DNA from: Haloplanus ruber
GTDB lineage: Archaea; Halobacteriota; Halobacteria; Halobacteriales; Haloferacaceae
Assembly (NCBI RefSeq): GCF_024494725.1
Contig: NZ_JANHDK010000005.1
Location: forward strand, 124,001-188,000
Length of the DNA stretch: 64,000 bases
Direction of reading: 5' to 3'
The position numbers were made by a program, and so were the translations under genes. Shown here piece by piece: positions 20,873 to 60,855 of the stretch. Positions within the stretch are counted from its first letter, which is position 1, and each line of letters starts with the position of its first letter. The notes under the pieces are model-generated. The model did not search any database. It was not told the origin of the DNA and saw nothing but the letters and a program-made list of their open reading frames with translations.

Positions 20873-20946
20873 GGGCCGGTAGCTCAGTCAGGTAGAGCGA
20901 CGGACTCTTAATCCGTCGGTCGGGGGTTCAACTCCCTCCCGGCCCG
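20873..20946 (+). tRNA. tRNA-Lys(CUU)
   Basis: A 74-nt cloverleaf. The acceptor GGGCCGG pairs with CCGGCCC, the discriminator is G, and the D-arm is AGCTCAGTCAGGTAGAGC. The anticodon loop CTCTTAA gives CUU, and the T-arm is GGGGGTTCAACTCCC. There is no intron and no encoded CCA. Its 3' part is repeated twice downstream. Confidence 0.95.
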
Positions 20947-21254: not shown

Positions 21255-21662
21255 ATGTTAATCATGGGAAAAGACGAGTACGAGACGCCACGGATTACCC
21301 GGCGTGAGACGGTCGAGAATTTCAGCATCGTCGGCTTGGGGGGTGCCGGTGTGGGAACGATGTGGATGGGATCACCGGTTAACGGCAACGGCCACGGTAA
21401 CGGTAACGGCAACGGCCACGGTAACGGTAACGGCAACGGCCACGGTAACGGTAACGGCAACGGCCACGGTAACGGCAACGGCCACGGTAACGGCAACGGC
21501 CACGGTAACGGCAACGGCCACGGTAACGGCAACGGCCACGGTAACGGCAACGGCCACGGTAACGGCAACGGTAACGGCAACGGCAACGGCCACAGTAACG
21601 GCAACGGTAACGGCAACAGCAATAGCAACAGCAACGGCAACAGCAACCACAAGGGTAACTAA
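21255..21662 (+). CDS. Putative modified-peptide precursor with Gly-Asn-His repeat
   Basis: 135 residues from ATG 21255, or 132 from ATG 21264, which suits a leaderless transcript from the TATA-like ATTAATAAC near 21231. The N-terminus contains EYETPRITRRETVENFS, similar to the YxxPxL leader motif recognised in lasso-peptide precursors. A Gly-rich segment (VGLGGAGVGTMWMGSP) follows, then about 93 residues of Gly alternating with Asn/His. Serines occur in the repeat only in its last 24 residues. No signal peptide. The HprK-like kinase downstream supports a modified-peptide role. This is inference; a structural or metal-binding protein is the alternative. Confidence 0.5.
   Translation: MLIMGKDEYETPRITRRETVENFSIVGLGGAGVGTMWMGSPVNGNGHGNGNGNGHGNGNGNGHGNGNGNGHGNGNGHGNGNGHGNGNGHGNGNGHGNGNGHGNGNGNGNGNGHSNGNGNGNSNSNSNGNSNHKGN
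21379..21650 (+). repeat. In-frame 6/18-bp tandem repeat encoding GN(G)H
   Basis: About 270 bp built from 6-bp units GGTAAC, GGCAAC and GGCCAC, often arranged as an 18-bp higher unit. Synonymous GGT/GGC alternate regularly. Because unit length is a multiple of three, changes in copy number keep the frame. Several other frames also stay open, which is a by-product of the repeat. Confidence 0.9.
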
Positions 21663-21938
21663 CCTAACGGCAACGGCGGCGAAGGCGAGGAGGCCTGAAG
21701 CGGACCGACGAACGGGAACTGGCGATGAGGTCGGTAGAGTTGTGCTCAACCACTGGACCCAGATTCCCGGAACCGCGGCCGGTCAGTTCGGTCAAGAGAC
21801 GATATCGCCATTCGAAGCAGAGGTACCTATTCGACACGCGCGGGAGGGACGCAAGTGCGACCACCGAAGCGGTTGGCAGCCGAGTCCGCAGACGGACCGG
21901 CGGGCTGCGATGTCGATGCGGCGGTGGCAGAAACGACT

Positions 21939-22868
21939 ATGTCCGGGAGAATCAACCATCGAGTCGTGAGCGACGAGTTGAGCCACTACCGGGCGTACGG
22001 ACTGACGATCCAGTCGGACCTGTCTCTGCCCGAACTGCACGGCGTCGATTCGGTTCGCGGGTCACCCGACATCGTCATTCGGACCGGTGACGTCGAGGCA
22101 CTCTGCGCCTCGGCCGACGACACTGTCGACCTGAACACGGTTCGGTTCGACTCCGTGGGAGCGTTTGCGGTCGTCGACGGTCACAAGATACTCTACGACC
22201 TCCACTCGTCCGACTTGCGACAGTACCAATACGTTCGTCGGATCGTCTACAACAAGGCACTCCCCGTCGCGTTGCTCCAGCGTGGCTCGGTGGTGTTGCA
22301 CGCGAGTGCCGTCGTTATCGACGGGCAGGCGGCCATCTTCCTGGGATCGCGGTCGACGGGCAAGTCGACGACTGCGGCGGCGTTTCATCTGCAGGGCCAT
22401 TCCGTTCTGGCGGACGACATCGTCGGGATTCGGCCCGGTGACGGTGCCCCGACTGTTCTCTCTGGTGTCCCACAGTTACGACTCGAACCGGAGGTGGTGG
22501 CAGCCCTCGACATCGACGAGACGGCCACGTCCAACCAGTCGGCGCGTTCCGAGAAACAGTATTTGAACCTCACTCCAGTCGCGGACACAGTTCCGGTCGG
22601 CTGTTTCTACCTGCTTGCTGAGGGCGAGTCGGTGGCGATCGAGTCGCTCGCCGGAACCGAGCAGTTCTTTCAGGTGGTCAAGCGCACCTTCCACGACGGG
22701 TTCCTGTCCGAAGATCGGATGACCCCGACCGGCTTCCAGCAGTGTTCGACGGTTATCGACGCCTCGCCGGTTCGGTACCTCCGTCGACCGAGGCGGTACG
22801 AGGCGCTTCCGTCGGTCGTCAAAAGGGTAGTGCGGGATCTTACGGCGGAGGAGACGGCCGCTGAGTGA
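21939..22868 (+). CDS. HprK-like (serine) kinase
   Basis: 309 residues from ATG 21939 (a GTG 84 bp upstream is in frame but the sequence there is unlike the family). The start HYRAYGLTIQSDLSLPEL is typical of HprK-related kinases found in peptide-modification clusters. The P-loop is GSRSTGKST (136-144), followed by the DD-containing LADDIVGI (157-164). Known relatives phosphorylate the C-terminal Ser of lasso peptides. It lies 276 bp behind the Gly-Asn-His gene on the same strand. No PqqD-like, transglutaminase-like or asparagine-synthetase-like partner is visible nearby, so the pathway may be different or incomplete. Confidence 0.75.
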   Translation: MSGRINHRVVSDELSHYRAYGLTIQSDLSLPELHGVDSVRGSPDIVIRTGDVEALCASADDTVDLNTVRFDSVGAFAVVDGHKILYDLHSSDLRQYQYVRRIVYNKALPVALLQRGSVVLHASAVVIDGQAAIFLGSRSTGKSTTAAAFHLQGHSVLADDIVGIRPGDGAPTVLSGVPQLRLEPEVVAALDIDETATSNQSARSEKQYLNLTPVADTVPVGCFYLLAEGESVAIESLAGTEQFFQVVKRTFHDGFLSEDRMTPTGFQQCSTVIDASPVRYLRRPRRYEALPSVVKRVVRDLTAEETAAE

Positions 22869-32678: not shown

Positions 32679-33086
32679 ATGGACTACGACGACAGTCTCG
32701 ACCGGGCGCTGACGGAGACGCCGGAGATCAACGACGCTGTCGAGCGGTTCCAAGTGCCCGACCCCGAGGTCCGTCCCGAGGGGAACGTGACCATCTACGA
32801 GAACTTCGCCGAGACACACGACCGCTTGAACCGGGACCAGGACCACCTTCTCAAGTTCTTCCAGTCGGAACTGGGGACGAGCGCCAGTATCGACGACCGG
32901 GGCCGCGCTCGGTTCACTGGCGACTTCAAACAGTCTCGCGCGAGCGACGCCCTCGACGAGTACGTCGAGACGTTCGTAACGTGTTCCGAGTGTGGGTCGC
33001 CCGACACCCGACTGGTCGAGGAACAGGGGGCGACGGTGCTGAAGTGTGACGCCTGCGGTGCGCTCTCCGCCGTTTCGGAGATCTGA
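32679..33086 (+). CDS. eif2b: Translation initiation factor aIF2 subunit beta
   Basis: 135 residues. An N-terminal helix (SLDRALTETPE) and a middle alpha/beta domain (LLKFFQSELGTSASID) precede a C-terminal zinc ribbon with CSECGSPDTRL and CDACGAL. It is part of the heterotrimer that brings initiator tRNA to the ribosome. Complete and of usual length. Its stop abuts the convergent zinc-finger gene. Confidence 0.95.
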   Translation: MDYDDSLDRALTETPEINDAVERFQVPDPEVRPEGNVTIYENFAETHDRLNRDQDHLLKFFQSELGTSASIDDRGRARFTGDFKQSRASDALDEYVETFVTCSECGSPDTRLVEEQGATVLKCDACGALSAVSEI

Positions 33087-34349: not shown

Positions 34350-35102
34350 ATGGGATGCAAGGTCGATTCCCTCACCGAGCGTCACGCCCCGACCGTGCCT
34401 GACCCGGGCTACGAGTCGGTCGACGAGTATCTCGTGGCGCGATGGACCGGCGCGGACGGACGTTCTGCCGACGGATACAAAGCCCTCACCGAGTGGTTCA
34501 ATAAGCGACTGCTAAAGCGAGTGTACGAAGAACACGGCCGTGATGTCGTCAGCGTTCACCTCGACCGTGAGTACGAGGTCATCACCGGTGATGCGGACAT
34601 CCAGCGGGACGAACTCGCGGCCGACCTTGCTGCGGATGGTCTCGATATCGACGAGGTCCAGACGGAACTCGTCTCTTGGAGTACGATGCGGCATCACCTC
34701 AAGGGCTGTCTCGAAGCCGAGAAAGACACGACACCGGCCGAAACCGACTGGGAAGCAAACACGGTGCAGATGGCCCGCGAACGAACCGCGGAAAAAGCGC
34801 AGTCAGTCTTGTCTTCGCTTACCTCGAAGGGCCGACTACAGGATGCAGACCGGGCGCAGGTCGATGTCCAAGTCAAACTGCGTTGTCCGGAGTGTTCAGT
34901 CCGGGTGCCGTTCGAGGATGCCGTCGAGCGCGGGTATGTGTGCAATACACACTCCGAACCGGACTCCGAAGAGTCAGTCGTGGACCGCGTCCAGAATCAG
35001 TTGTCGGCTATTGCACTCCCGTACGCTGCTGTTGAAGCACTGCAGACTGTTCTCCTTGGAGAGTCGCTCCTCGTCGAGAGTGTCGCAATGGGTGCTCTCT
35101 AG
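34350..35102 (+). CDS. rdfA: Rod-determining factor RdfA family protein
   Basis: 250 residues. The N-terminal two-thirds match the RdfA family in order: GCKVDSL, ARWTGADG, LTEWFNKRLLKRVYEEHGRD and SWSTMRHHLKGCLEAEK. A C-terminal CPEC with a later Cys (GYVCNTH) may hold zinc. RdfA is required for rod shape in Haloferax volcanii. The SMC-related gene starts 2 bp after the stop, the usual pairing for this family. Confidence 0.8.
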   Translation: MGCKVDSLTERHAPTVPDPGYESVDEYLVARWTGADGRSADGYKALTEWFNKRLLKRVYEEHGRDVVSVHLDREYEVITGDADIQRDELAADLAADGLDIDEVQTELVSWSTMRHHLKGCLEAEKDTTPAETDWEANTVQMARERTAEKAQSVLSSLTSKGRLQDADRAQVDVQVKLRCPECSVRVPFEDAVERGYVCNTHSEPDSEESVVDRVQNQLSAIALPYAAVEALQTVLLGESLLVESVAMGAL

Positions 35103-35104
35103 AA

Positions 35105-36892
35105 ATGTCGTGGCAGCTCTCTCTCAGGAATATCGCTGGCATTCGGCACGGTGAGGCACACGTCGAACCGGGTGTGAACGCCGTTCGAGCGAGTAACTGG
35201 CAGGGGAAATCCAGCTTTCTGGCCGGTATCAAAACTGCGTTCGGCACCGCAACCCCGTTGACTGAGGGGCAATCATCCGGGGAAGTCGTCCTGCAGACCG
35301 ACGACGGAGAGACCACGGTTCAGTTAGAACGAACGAACGGCACTGTCTCCCGATCCGGGCAACCGTATCTCGACGCGGAGTACGACCGCGTCTGTGCGGA
35401 GCTATTCGCGTTCCTCGACGAGGACAACGAGATCCGGCAAGCCGTTCGATCCGGGCAGAACCTAGAGGACCGTCTCACCCGGCCACTGGAGTTCGAGAAT
35501 ATCGACGAACAGATTGCGGAGTTGCGGGCCGAACGTGAGCAGGTCGAACGAGAGCGTGAACGGGCGGAGGCCGCAGCCGAGCGCCTGCCACAGCTACAAC
35601 AACGCGTAACGGATCTTGCAACCGAACTCGAAGAGCTGCGGACTGCGCGTGCCGACATCGATGACGACACCGCTGGTGACAGTGATGCCCGCGAGCAACT
35701 GAGCGAGCGACGGGCCCAGCGCGACCGCGTGGAGCGTAAAATCGAACGGCTCGAAGCGACTGCCGAGAGCGTTCGTGAGACTCTTTCGGAACAGCGAGAC
35801 GAACTGGAAGCTCTTACCGTTCCGTCCAACGACGATATTGCGGGCGCCTTAGAGCGTCTCCGTGCCGACCTTCGAGATATCGAACGCGACAAGGAGCTGT
35901 TGCAATCGGTGTACGAAGCGAACAAACGGGTGGTGGATGAAGAGCGCGTAGAACTCCTCACCGACGTCTCACACGAGATGCTCGCGGACTCGATGACGTG
36001 TTGGCTCTGTGGTTCTGACGCGACGCGGGAGGATATCGAAGCCCAATTAGCCACACTCGACGACCGGATCACCGATCTCGGTTCACGAGCGGAAGACACC
36101 AGAGCGCAGGTCGACGAACTCGAGACCAAACGAGATAAAATCAAGAACGCACGCCGCCGTGAGACGGATCTCACCGACCGGATTGCTGACCTCGAGTCCC
36201 GGCTTGCAGACGTGGAGACCGACCTCGAGACGGCGCGCGAACGGCGAGACGATCTGACATCGAAAATCGAGGAACTCGGGTCGGCTGTCGATTCGACTGA
36301 GGACCGCATCACTGATCTCGAAAGCGAGATCAAGTACACCGAGGCGGAACTGGCTGACGCTCGCGACGAACTCGAGGACACGGAGACGGTAGCGGGACAG
36401 CGGGACATGCTCGACAGCGAGTACGACTCGTTGACGAGTGAGATCACCGACCTCCGAACCCGAAAAGAGCAGGTCAAACGGCGGACGCGCGAGGCATTTT
36501 CCTCGGCGCTCGACGACCTGCTCAAGCCGTTCGAGACGGGATTCGAGACGGCCCGCCTCACGAGCACGTTTGAACTCGTCGTTGCGCGGGACGGCCGAGA
36601 GGCGGCGCTCGACGCCCTGAGTGAAGGCGAACGCGAACTACTGGGATTCGTGGCTGCGCTTGCCGGATACGAGGCCTTCGAGGTCGGTGAACGTCTGCCG
36701 GTGATGTTACTCGACGGACTCGGTGGGCTTGCCAGCGATAACGTCCAGATCCTCGTCGAGTATCTGGCCGAGCGCACGGAGTATCTCATCCTCACGGCCT
36801 ATCCTGAGTACGAGGGTTTCGATGGACACGAACTGTCGCCGTCCGACTGGCGAGTGGTATCGCACGACTCGGACGCGGAAGCGGCATCATAG
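35105..36892 (+). CDS. Archaea-specific SMC-related protein (Rad50-like ATPase)
   Basis: 595 residues. The N-terminal ATPase half has RNIAGIRHGEAHVEPGVN and a P-loop variant ASNWQGKSSFL. A long coiled coil (about 130-480) is interrupted near 300 by TCWLCGSD, a CxxC zinc-hook-like apex. The C-terminal half has the signature LSEGERELLG and Walker B VMLLDGLGG. It is shorter than SMC or Rad50. It is encoded with RdfA, so a joint role in cell shape or chromosome organisation is likely. Confidence 0.85.
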   Translation: MSWQLSLRNIAGIRHGEAHVEPGVNAVRASNWQGKSSFLAGIKTAFGTATPLTEGQSSGEVVLQTDDGETTVQLERTNGTVSRSGQPYLDAEYDRVCAELFAFLDEDNEIRQAVRSGQNLEDRLTRPLEFENIDEQIAELRAEREQVERERERAEAAAERLPQLQQRVTDLATELEELRTARADIDDDTAGDSDAREQLSERRAQRDRVERKIERLEATAESVRETLSEQRDELEALTVPSNDDIAGALERLRADLRDIERDKELLQSVYEANKRVVDEERVELLTDVSHEMLADSMTCWLCGSDATREDIEAQLATLDDRITDLGSRAEDTRAQVDELETKRDKIKNARRRETDLTDRIADLESRLADVETDLETARERRDDLTSKIEELGSAVDSTEDRITDLESEIKYTEAELADARDELEDTETVAGQRDMLDSEYDSLTSEITDLRTRKEQVKRRTREAFSSALDDLLKPFETGFETARLTSTFELVVARDGREAALDALSEGERELLGFVAALAGYEAFEVGERLPVMLLDGLGGLASDNVQILVEYLAERTEYLILTAYPEYEGFDGHELSPSDWRVVSHDSDAEAAS

Positions 36893-46816: not shown

Positions 46817-46876
46817 ATGGCAGAACGCAACGACCGACACGTCGAGGATAGCGATTCTACAACGGGGTGTCGCTAA
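46817..46876 (+). CDS. 19-residue leader reading frame
   Basis: MAERNDRHVEDSDSTTGCR from ATG 46817 to TAA 46876. The next gene's GTG at 46879 follows after two bases. A TTACTAAGG element near 46786 could serve as TATA and would place the mRNA 5' end at this ATG. It may work as a translational lead-in. Confidence 0.35.
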   Translation: MAERNDRHVEDSDSTTGCR

Positions 46877-46878
46877 CC

Positions 46879-47283
46879 GTGCGCATTCCGCTTCCCAATA
46901 ACAAACTCGTCGCCTTCACGCTAGCAGGCGCCCTCCTCACCGCAGTCGTGGCCGGTGGCCTTGCGATGCCCGGCGTTGGCCTCGGGCAGGCTGGTGGGGA
47001 CTCTGACTCGCCTGGAACGCCCGCGTCGGATGCCTCACAACAGGCTGCTGCCGATGCTCCGACGCCCAATGAGGACTTCACGCCAGCAGTTCAGACCCAA
47101 TCCGGCTACGAGGACGAAGCTCATGAGGAAGATGAAGCCTACGGGGACGAAGCCCACGAAGAGAGTGAATCCCATGAGGAGGATGAAGCCTACGAGGACG
47201 ACGAAGCCCACGAGGACGACGACGACCACGAGGACGAATACGAAGCGGGGGACGAGGACGGCGAACACGAAGAGGACGAGTGA
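46879..47283 (+). CDS. Membrane-anchored acidic, His-containing repeat protein
   Basis: 134 residues from GTG 46879. A signal or anchor helix (VAFTLAGALLTAVVAGG) and a Ser/Thr/Pro linker precede about 55 residues of repeats built on E-A-H-E-E-D and E-A-Y-E-D-D, ending GEHEEDE. The outer tail is extremely acidic with regularly placed His, suitable for binding divalent metals. First gene of a tight operon with apbE, a TSP3 protein and a bis-haem protein. No family recognised. Confidence 0.65.
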   Translation: MRIPLPNNKLVAFTLAGALLTAVVAGGLAMPGVGLGQAGGDSDSPGTPASDASQQAAADAPTPNEDFTPAVQTQSGYEDEAHEEDEAYGDEAHEESESHEEDEAYEDDEAHEDDDDHEDEYEAGDEDGEHEEDE

Positions 47284-55598: not shown

Positions 55599-56174
55599 TT
55601 ACTCGTCAGGTCGCCACCGGCCACCGATCCCCTCGCGAGGATAGTCCTGATACGTGCCGTTGAGAAACGTCGTGACGCGGCCGTCCTCTTCGCTGAGCGT
55701 GATCACCCACAGGACTTCCTCACGGATCGACGTTTCCAGCGCGCTCATGTGTTTGGCCCCCATCCACTCGGCGTATTCGAGATTGCTGGACTCCTTGATA
55801 TCCTCTCGGTTGGGGCTGCGGACCCGAACCATCTGCTCCTGAATCGTCCCATCCCCGGTCACGACGACAGCACCGTCGCAGCTGAACGCCACGTCCCGGG
55901 CAACCTGCGTGAATCCGTCGGGCGACCCGGTGACGACCTGGCATCGCTCAACGGGCCACCTGTTGTCGCCCATCGGGTCGGTGTAGGCATCGAAGTTGAC
56001 GTCGGCAACGATCAACAGGTACAGACTCGGACCACTCACATGCCGTTCTCCCCACCGGTCGAACCCCATGCTCAACGACTCGGCAGTGTACCTGATCTGG
56101 TCCATGAGCTCCTGACTGGTCGCATACCTGTTCAAAACGCGATCGAGTTCCTCCATGCTGATGCATGTCCGCAT
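55599..56174 (-). CDS. DacZ/DisA_N-type diadenylate cyclase
   Basis: 191 residues (ATG 56174, or ATG 56156). The DAC domain fills the C-terminal half: DGAVVVTGDGT (DGA at 100-102) and YAEWMGAKHMSALET, where the canonical RHR-type motif reads KHM (141-143). It ends EEDGRVTTF and GGRWRPDE. It should make c-di-AMP, but it is short and has a changed nucleotide-binding motif, so it may be a divergent paralogue. Confidence 0.7.
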   Translation of the reverse strand: MRTCISMEELDRVLNRYATSQELMDQIRYTAESLSMGFDRWGERHVSGPSLYLLIVADVNFDAYTDPMGDNRWPVERCQVVTGSPDGFTQVARDVAFSCDGAVVVTGDGTIQEQMVRVRSPNREDIKESSNLEYAEWMGAKHMSALETSIREEVLWVITLSEEDGRVTTFLNGTYQDYPREGIGGRWRPDE

Positions 56175-58250: not shown

Positions 58251-59402
58251 TCAGTCGCGGCGCTCGCTCGCGAGTTCGGCCCCCTCGACGAGCGCTGACA
58301 GTTTCGCCCACGCGATTTCCGGATCGACCATGCCGAGGCCCGCCTGTGTGCCGAACCCGCAGTCCGGTGCGGCGACCAGCGGCGTCGAGTCGTCGACTGT
58401 CTCGGCGACCCGCTCCAGACGGTCCGCGATAGTCCGCGGGTGATCGACGATGTTCGTCTTCACGTCGACGACGCCCGGGAGGAGCGTCCAGCCGTCCGGC
58501 AGAGGGTGTTCCGCGAACGCGCGATACTCGTGTTGGTGGCGCGGGTTGGCCTGTTCGACGCTGAGTCCCGAGATATCCGCCTCGTAGAGTTCCGGCAGCA
58601 TCTCGACCAGATCCGTATCGTGGTGGTGGGGTCCTTCGTAACTCCCCCAGCAGGTGTGGAGGCGAACCTGCTCGGCCGGGACGTTCGACAGTGCCTCGTT
58701 GAGCGCCTCGACGTGGAGACGCGTTGCCGCCTTGATTTCGTCGAGCGGTTCGTCGGCGTAGGCCGCCGTATGGCCGACCGTGAGGAGTTCCGGGGCGTCG
58801 ATCTGCAGCGTCATCCCGTGCTCGGCGATACGTTCGTACTCCTCGGCCATCGCGTCCGCGACGGCAAAGAGGAACTCGTCGTAGGCGTCGTAATACTCGT
58901 TGACGTGCGTGGCCGTGACGACACTCGGCGATGCCGCAGTCATGAATGTCTCCTCGACGTCGGCGCCGACGGCCGATAGCGCGTCGTCGAACGCCGCGAG
59001 TTCCGCCTCGGCCTCCTCACGGCCAGTGTATTCGACCGGCCCCGTCACGACGGGGTGCATCGACAGGTCGATGACGTCGGTCTTGAACGTCTCCTCGGCG
59101 TAGTCCGGGAACTCTTGGAGGTCCGCCCAGAGTTCCTGTTCGCGCTCCCCCTCGATGCCGCTGAGACGGTTCGCGACGTACCAGTTGAACGAGACACGGG
59201 GCTGTTCCCCGTTGTTGACGACGTCGAGACCGACCTCGGCTTGGCGCTCGACGACGCCGCGCGTAGCCGACTCGACGGTGTCGTCCCACTCCTCGGGGTC
59301 GACGTCCGTGCCGTCCTGGCGTCGTTCGAGTAGGTCGAGCAGTTCCGGCGGACGAGGCAGGCTTCCGATGTGCGTCGTGCGAATTCGCTCGTCGCTCGCC
59401 AT
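58251..59402 (-). CDS. MetE-C-like cobalamin-independent methionine synthase family protein
   Basis: 383 residues from ATG 59402. TTHIGSLPRP is the family start. The zinc site is partly visible in RLHTCWGSYEG and APDCGFGTQ. This is the UROD/MetE C-terminal barrel without the N-terminal half of full MetE. Such archaeal proteins use a corrinoid protein or simple methyl donor to make methionine, or act as S-methyl/alkyl transferases. Confidence 0.85.
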   Translation of the reverse strand: MASDERIRTTHIGSLPRPPELLDLLERRQDGTDVDPEEWDDTVESATRGVVERQAEVGLDVVNNGEQPRVSFNWYVANRLSGIEGEREQELWADLQEFPDYAEETFKTDVIDLSMHPVVTGPVEYTGREEAEAELAAFDDALSAVGADVEETFMTAASPSVVTATHVNEYYDAYDEFLFAVADAMAEEYERIAEHGMTLQIDAPELLTVGHTAAYADEPLDEIKAATRLHVEALNEALSNVPAEQVRLHTCWGSYEGPHHHDTDLVEMLPELYEADISGLSVEQANPRHQHEYRAFAEHPLPDGWTLLPGVVDVKTNIVDHPRTIADRLERVAETVDDSTPLVAAPDCGFGTQAGLGMVDPEIAWAKLSALVEGAELASERRD

Positions 59403-59581
59403 TGTACCACATCGTCGTCGCCGATCCAAATATGACTCCCGGTCTCGGCCGTTCGTGGTCGCTGGACCCCCTCACCGGGAGATCTGTCCCCGGCCACGCG
59501 CTCAAATATTACAAAAATTATACTTTTGAAGTGTCATATAACAACTTTCATTAATGTATATGATATTATCTGTTATGCAGT

Positions 59582-59938
59582 ATGACAACAAACACCAATT
59601 CGACGAGCAATCCCGAGGTCCCCATTCCGGAAGCGGTCGAAGCACAGTTCGATCAGACGAGCGAGCACTGGCGTTCGAAGGTCGAATGGGAGGCAAAGCG
59701 GCGGGAACTGGAGACGGTAACGGACGAAGAGCGGGAGCACGGAGAGCAGTTGCTGGCGATGATTGCACAGGGCTTGGCGGGACAGTTGGACGACCCCGAT
59801 GCGTTCCTGGATGCGCTCGAAGCCGTCGAGGCGCTGGGACAACAACGCGCTGAGACCATCGCCAGTCACCTCGACGATGCTCCCGACGACCCATGTGACC
59901 CCATAGCGGGACCAACGGAGCTGTCCCGAGATGGCTAA
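59582..59938 (+). CDS. Helical acidic protein, first gene of unknown pair
   Basis: 118 residues from ATG 59582. The TATA-like GTATATGA near 59553 and an unusually AT-rich 70-bp upstream block predict a strong leaderless promoter. Mostly helix: SEHWRSKVEWEAKRRELETV and AFLDALEAVEALGQQRAE. No signal or membrane segment. The end overlaps the next gene by 8 nt. Family unknown. Confidence 0.6.
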   Translation: MTTNTNSTSNPEVPIPEAVEAQFDQTSEHWRSKVEWEAKRRELETVTDEEREHGEQLLAMIAQGLAGQLDDPDAFLDALEAVEALGQQRAETIASHLDDAPDDPCDPIAGPTELSRDG

Positions 59939-60626
59939 CGAACTGTGGTGGGGACAGAGCAAGTGGAGTTGGCCGGGGCAGTTGAACCCCACCTGGAACT
60001 CCGGATGGCTGGAGATACGCGGGAGCATCTCCGGTCCCGGCAAGGGAAACATCGGTGCGTTGGACCAGACGACCTATACGCTCAGCCTGCTCGGCCAATA
60101 CTGGCTCACGCCCAACCGAATGGACCCGTGCCCGGACCTAGGAGGGCACTCATCCTTACCGACGGTCAAGTTACGGGGGCAGTTACGCGGCGACACGAAC
60201 GCCGGCCTGCTGTTCGATAAGCCGGACCTCAACGTTGACCTCGTCATCGAACAGACGGCATACTTCGACGGATACCGATACGACCACGCGCGAACCACCC
60301 AACGGATATTCGACCTGCCACACAAAGCGAACAAGAACGACAGGAAGTACTTCGGACCGGCGACGGGGTACTCCGCCCCGAGCCTCGGAATCAACCTGCA
60401 AAGACACCAGAACAAGACGCTCAACATCAACGTCGAGGCGAAACTAAAGATCTATCTGGAGGGGTGGGCGACCCTCGATCCCCGGCAGTTCGCCATGTCG
60501 ATCCCTCAGTGGACACTGACGGACAACTGTTACTCCCCTCCCGACCGCAGTTGGGGGACCGGCGTCCATGGGGGAGTCAGCACATCGACCGCCGACGACG
60601 GCGACGACGACGACGATGACTGGTAG
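59931..60626 (+). CDS. Trp-rich beta protein with DDDDDDW tail, second gene of unknown pair
   Basis: 231 residues. The start is unusually rich in Trp (ELWWGQSKWSWPGQLNPTWN). Alternating strands follow (YTLSLLGQYWLT, NINVEAKLKIYLEGWATL), then a flexible STSTADDG linker and the tail DDDDDDW. No signal peptide or membrane helix. Asn/Gln content is higher than in neighbours, which hints at transfer. I recognise no family. Confidence 0.6.
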   Translation: MANELWWGQSKWSWPGQLNPTWNSGWLEIRGSISGPGKGNIGALDQTTYTLSLLGQYWLTPNRMDPCPDLGGHSSLPTVKLRGQLRGDTNAGLLFDKPDLNVDLVIEQTAYFDGYRYDHARTTQRIFDLPHKANKNDRKYFGPATGYSAPSLGINLQRHQNKTLNINVEAKLKIYLEGWATLDPRQFAMSIPQWTLTDNCYSPPDRSWGTGVHGGVSTSTADDGDDDDDDW

Positions 60627-60781
60627 ACCGCCGGCTGCAACGCTTCGCCGCGGCTCGCGCATCGCTCGTGTAGCACGCGCCGCGCGTGGGCGACTCTGTT
60701 TGTAGTGAGTGAACCGAAATGAAATGGCTGGGGAGTTGCGGCCCCAGTTCCCGGCCGGTCAGAGACCGACAGGGAAGGAGG

Positions 60782-60855
60782 TGGGCCAACGCGGATTTGA
60801 ACCGCGGGCCTCCCGGTTATCAGCCGAGCGCTCAACCTGACTGAGCTATTGGCCC
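60782..60855 (-). tRNA. tRNA-Ile(GAU)
   Basis: 74 nt on the minus strand. The acceptor GGGCCAA pairs with TTGGCCC, the discriminator is A, the anticodon loop CTGATAA gives GAU, and the T-arm is CGCGGTTCAAATCCGCG. No intron and no CCA. Confidence 0.95.

Follow-up and report, generated by a model that had tools for sequence, protein, structure and literature searches.

Two overlapping genes beside tRNA-Ile in Haloplanus ruber: probable species-specific acquired DNA of apparently new protein families

What are the two small genes that lie between a metE-like gene and tRNA-Ile in Haloplanus ruber, and how did they come to be there? In the 64,000-nucleotide stretch of DNA analyzed here (the window), gene A (59582-59938, + strand; 118 aa) and gene B (59931-60626, + strand; 231 aa) are the only genes between the metE-like gene (58251-59402, minus strand) and tRNA-Ile (GAT; 60780-60855, minus strand), whose 3' end faces them. 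They are probably species-specific acquired genes. A fuller account, which we put forward tentatively, is that they make up a real two-gene operon, the cargo of a lineage-specific mobile element, and that their products are translationally coupled and form a complex.

Are these ORFs genes at all? An earlier sequence-only reading had placed two overlapping ORFs here, and they are confirmed: the reading frames overlap by 8 nt, both on the + strand, and both show strong codon-position periodicity, which none of 5000 shuffles matched. GC by codon position is 0.71/0.44/0.70 in A and 0.55/0.47/0.80 in B, and in a six-frame comparison of codon use the annotated frame came out on top, with a score below that of the neighboring genes. 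The length of B is not decisive proof of coding, because shuffling the interval 2000 times produced an ORF of at least 231 aa on 24 occasions (about 1%). One possibility is that both ORFs are spurious or arose de novo, with no selected function; the chance length, the low codon score and the failure to find homologs (see below) are all in keeping with this, but the periodicity of both ORFs, their overlap, and an AT-rich region placed exactly before A make it improbable.

That region (59502-59581, + strand) is 78.7% AT, as against 36% AT window-wide, and is the most AT-rich 80-nt stretch of the 64 kb, which makes it plausible that an archaeal promoter lies upstream of A and that its transcript is leaderless. 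Of the “strong AT-rich leaderless promoter” originally proposed, the AT-richness stands, while the strength and the leaderless start are presumptions: a strict 8-nt A/T run was not found at -37 to -8 of A. An RNA family scan of the window returned two tRNAs and nothing else.

The two predicted proteins differ in character. Protein A is acidic (pI 4.1, charge about -20), which is ordinary among ORFs of the window, and a single-sequence model of fair confidence (mean pLDDT 74) predicts three helices, at residues 17-44, 48-65 and 72-97. Protein B is rich in Trp, Tyr and Asn, and two unusual features claimed for it are both present in its translation: a Trp-rich N-terminal stretch (59946-60008, + strand) with six Trp in the first 26 residues (positions 6, 7, 12, 14, 22 and 26), and an acidic C-terminal tail, ADDGDDDDDDW (60591-60623, + strand). 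The unusual amino-acid use that had been suggested for the pair holds for B, whose Trp fraction (4.8%) is the highest, and Asn fraction the second highest, among about 50 window ORFs obtained by crude calling. Without its acidic tail, the B core has a pI of 8.5, against a window median of 4.7, and is 10.9% aromatic; by inspection, neither a signal peptide nor a membrane span was seen in B. The single-sequence AlphaFold2 model of B is mostly strands and is unreliable (pLDDT 40), so the picture of a helical first and a beta-rich second product is upheld for A, while B is beta-rich in a low-confidence model only. Foldseek searches with this unreliable model gave best TM-scores below 0.4; the best match in BFVD (E 0.002) had a TM-score of 0.11 and is not interpretable. 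Five Asp followed by Trp and a stop was found in 361 class genomes only at the locus itself, and a match to this pattern in one of them (G208) reads TGG and not a stop.

Could B be a single-stranded DNA-binding protein (SSB)? An aromatic, basic beta core would bind ssDNA, and an acidic tail with an aromatic end would compete for the binding face and recruit partners. A Trp-rich N-terminus such as that of B is not known to be an SSB feature. The composition of the core and the DDGDDDDDDW end fit such a scheme, an acidic C-terminal tail being typical of phage and bacterial SSBs (PMC5686142), and with T7 gp2.5-type SSBs such as Enc34 ORF6 (PMC5686142) B would share a probably beta-rich aromatic core followed by an acidic tail. 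It differs from them, however, in its Trp-rich N-terminus and its helical partner gene; no sequence, OB-fold family or structure match was found for it, and its model is of low confidence. The tail resembles those of phage and bacterial SSBs on paper, membership of the SSBs is not claimed, and the scheme as a whole is highly improbable.

Do the proteins have relatives elsewhere? The proposal that neither belongs to a known family was borne out: searches of both against Pfam, NCBIfam, PHROGs, PADLOC and PDB sequences gave nothing above noise, and B had zero matches among the Pfam, NCBIfam, PHROGs and PADLOC profiles. The family matches of A (Cas3-like_C, E 0.14; fulvocin-related, 0.039; tail assembly chaperone, 0.17; DrmC in PADLOC, 0.017) were rejected as sub-threshold, chance-level hits of an acidic helical protein; its best Foldseek match in the PDB (E 3.1) is not interpretable. 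In a 391-genome sample of the class, 359 genomes contain matches to A, the best outside its own genome at E 9e-5. Most of them fall within long ORFs that encode other proteins; they were put down to composition noise, and no convincing relative of A was found in that sample. No relative of B was found in any other genome of the family (170 searched, including 11 other species of the genus), and none that was convincing in the class sample beyond its own genome, in two other families (125 and 146 genomes), or in a 295-genome sample of the phylum; these sets overlap, and those of which the window's own genome is a member include it. The best outside match of B (E 0.0039; G192 contig L002, 1501-1617) covers 39 residues only and sits in an ORF of 297-431 aa that, as read from its sequence, resembles an alpha/beta-hydrolase or PHA-synthase-like region; it was not accepted as a relative. 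BLAST searches of plasmids and phages, and pattern scans of GTDB contigs and IMG/VR, were empty or at chance level, and no donor DNA for the pair was found in plasmids, phages or IMG/VR. Searches of this kind detect close to moderate relatives, and fast-evolving distant homologs would escape them; within that range, A and B appear new as protein families. Membership of a known family and a place in the conserved core genome, the two outcomes named beforehand as contrary to the sequence-only reading, both failed to occur: no family was found, and the pair is absent from relatives.

The flanking genes allow the same place to be compared across the genus. In the closest species compared (G075; 91% identity in metE and in a thioredoxin-domain protein), blastn and local alignment against contig L077 show 57 bp in place of window positions 59442-60701, a species-specific segment of 1,260 bp, with metE and tRNA-Ile still on either side. 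In the other species the DNA differs on the pair's side of tRNA-Ile, and in two of the genus (G072, contig L079; G068, contig L081) a tyrosine recombinase gene (Pfam PF00589) lies on that same side, with exact repeats of 21 nt and 56 nt, respectively, overlapping the tRNA-Ile end. Because both have a recombinase together with a tRNA-end repeat, the tRNA-Ile 3' end is, as judged from these genomes, an integration hotspot in the genus. The suggestion that the pair is acquired DNA beside tRNA-Ile is supported by this hotspot and by the near-empty site in the closest species.

The pair shares with these tRNA-integrated elements the genus, the 3' side of tRNA-Ile, and a nearly empty counterpart in a close relative, but differs in having neither an integrase, in the 1,260-bp segment or near the pair in the window, nor an exact tRNA-end repeat of at least 10 nt leftward within 56.9-60.7 kb. 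The sole match to the tRNA-Ile end elsewhere in the window is a 14-nt inverted one inside tRNA-Lys, and the ends of the segment carry short chance repeats only. The segment is single-copy in its own genome, where its other matches are short GAC-repeats derived from the Asp tail. Since integrase and att repeat were both missing from the window, the pair does not strictly qualify as an integrated element and looks like the residual cargo of one.

Gain is favored over loss as the probable direction of the event because the pair is absent from all the other species of the genus and family that were compared. The reverse, in which A and B are old genes of the genus or family that have been lost many times and not recently gained, would be consistent with a composition that fits the host (GC3 0.70-0.80) and with the absence of an insertion scar. 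Each of the 11 other species in the genus, and the rest of the family as well, would have to have lost the genes, however, and blastn-detectable traces were absent from the intervals examined; we regard it as very unlikely.

A second species-specific region lies about 2.7 kb from the pair: some 23.7 kb (33087-56837) between an aIF2-beta-like gene (32679-33086) and tRNA-Met is missing at that place in G075, where these two are about 280 bp apart. Its GC content is lower, mostly 0.55-0.63, and a tRNA-Met repeat for it was looked for and not found. Inside the missing region, at 34350-36892, a gene for RdfA (rod-determining factor A; Pfam PF21811, E 4e-38) is directly followed by one for an SMC-like coiled-coil protein. 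At 46867-47283 (+ strand) is a probably exported protein of 138 aa that has no Pfam match and whose tail, a His/Glu/Asp repeat (DEAHEED...), is extremely acidic. At 55599-56174 (minus strand) is one of 191 aa whose match to the DisA diadenylate cyclase domain (PF02457, E 2.5e-5) stays under the bit-score cutoff. Farther left in the window, beside tRNA-Lys (20873-20946), a small ORF (21255-21662, + strand) encodes a leader-like MGKDEYETPRITRRETVENFSIVGLGGAG and then about 90 residues of (NGNGH)n; after it comes a distant HPr-kinase-like protein (21855-22868, + strand; NCBIfam HprK_rel_A, E 2.7e-7, below cutoff). The YxxP-like leader and the HprK-like neighbor resemble lasso-peptide/RiPP loci; a B or C enzyme of that type was not seen near 21255-22868.

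What kind of cargo might the pair be? One possibility is that a provirus once sat at tRNA-Ile and left A and B behind as remnants of its virion-assembly genes, with B, for example, a beta-rich surface, fiber or capsid-type protein and A its small helical assembly partner. The integrases at this hotspot in relatives and the predicted beta-richness of B would suit such an origin, as would the abundance of viral genes in narrow-spread archaeal gene islands (PMC4158269); B also has a non-significant likeness to adenovirus fiber heads (E 1.2), and A to the tail assembly chaperone family already mentioned. Every one of these sequence matches is at chance level, however, B has no match in PHROGs, phages or IMG/VR, the structural comparison starts from a low-confidence model whose best Foldseek TM-scores are below 0.4, and the segment contains no other viral gene, so that both the provirus origin and the roles sketched for the two proteins are rather unlikely.

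Archaeal “dark matter” (ORFan) islands offer a broader comparison. These hold narrow-spread, uncharacterized genes, often of mobile-element origin, and the study that described them states that mobile elements of archaea integrate most often at tRNA genes (Makarova et al., 2014; PMC4158269). Its procedure refers to five-gene islands, with genes present in at most five genomes (PMC4158269); B is uncharacterized and present in one genome, and A has no convincing match elsewhere. The difference is one of size and company, since the islands contain several genes and the segment two, neither a recognizable mobile nor a defense gene. As a genomic phenomenon the pair is ordinary, a small case of archaeal “dark matter.” A literature search for ORFans at tRNA genes of haloarchaea found nothing specific.

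In the operon account preferred here, the species or a recent ancestor would have gained the pair at tRNA-Ile, on the 3' side that mobile elements with tyrosine recombinases use in this genus, and the two genes would have been left as residual cargo once the recombinase and att repeats were gone. The AT-rich promoter may drive both genes, and the 8-nt overlap would couple their translation, giving a fixed ratio of products. Such coupling, together with the opposite charge of A and the B core, is the reason for proposing a complex in fixed ratio: A and B most likely associate with each other in the cytoplasm, A perhaps as chaperone, neutralizer or partner and B as the active or structural component.

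A related possibility is that the pair is a toxin-antitoxin or effector-immunity system, in which the acidic A, made first, neutralizes a B that is harmful to the cell or to a competitor. The pair resembles type II toxin-antitoxin operons in its two overlapping genes, its small acidic first product and its mobile-type location. It departs from them in the length of B, which is great for a type II toxin; toxin families gave no match to B, and antitoxin and DNA-binding families none to A. PADLOC gives the weak DrmC match for A only, and no secretion signal was seen; a role of this kind is distinctly unlikely. The structural or toxin-like assembly suggested in the sequence-only reading drew evidence neither for nor against it.

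Lineage-specific ORFan cargo found at tRNA hotspots is known to have given rise to new archaeal defense, virus and secretion genes. The pair offers a clean case, short (1.26 kb) and of two genes only, whose site is nearly empty in a sister species, so that its function could be tested by transferring a single small fragment to a laboratory haloarchaeon. At its most speculative, and fairly unlikely as a whole, A and B would found two new families that form a heteromeric complex with a function not described before; the acidic tail of B, with its Trp end, would control a basic, aromatic beta-sheet surface. Such a complex might serve, for example, as a halophilic anti-virus or virion-derived assembly.
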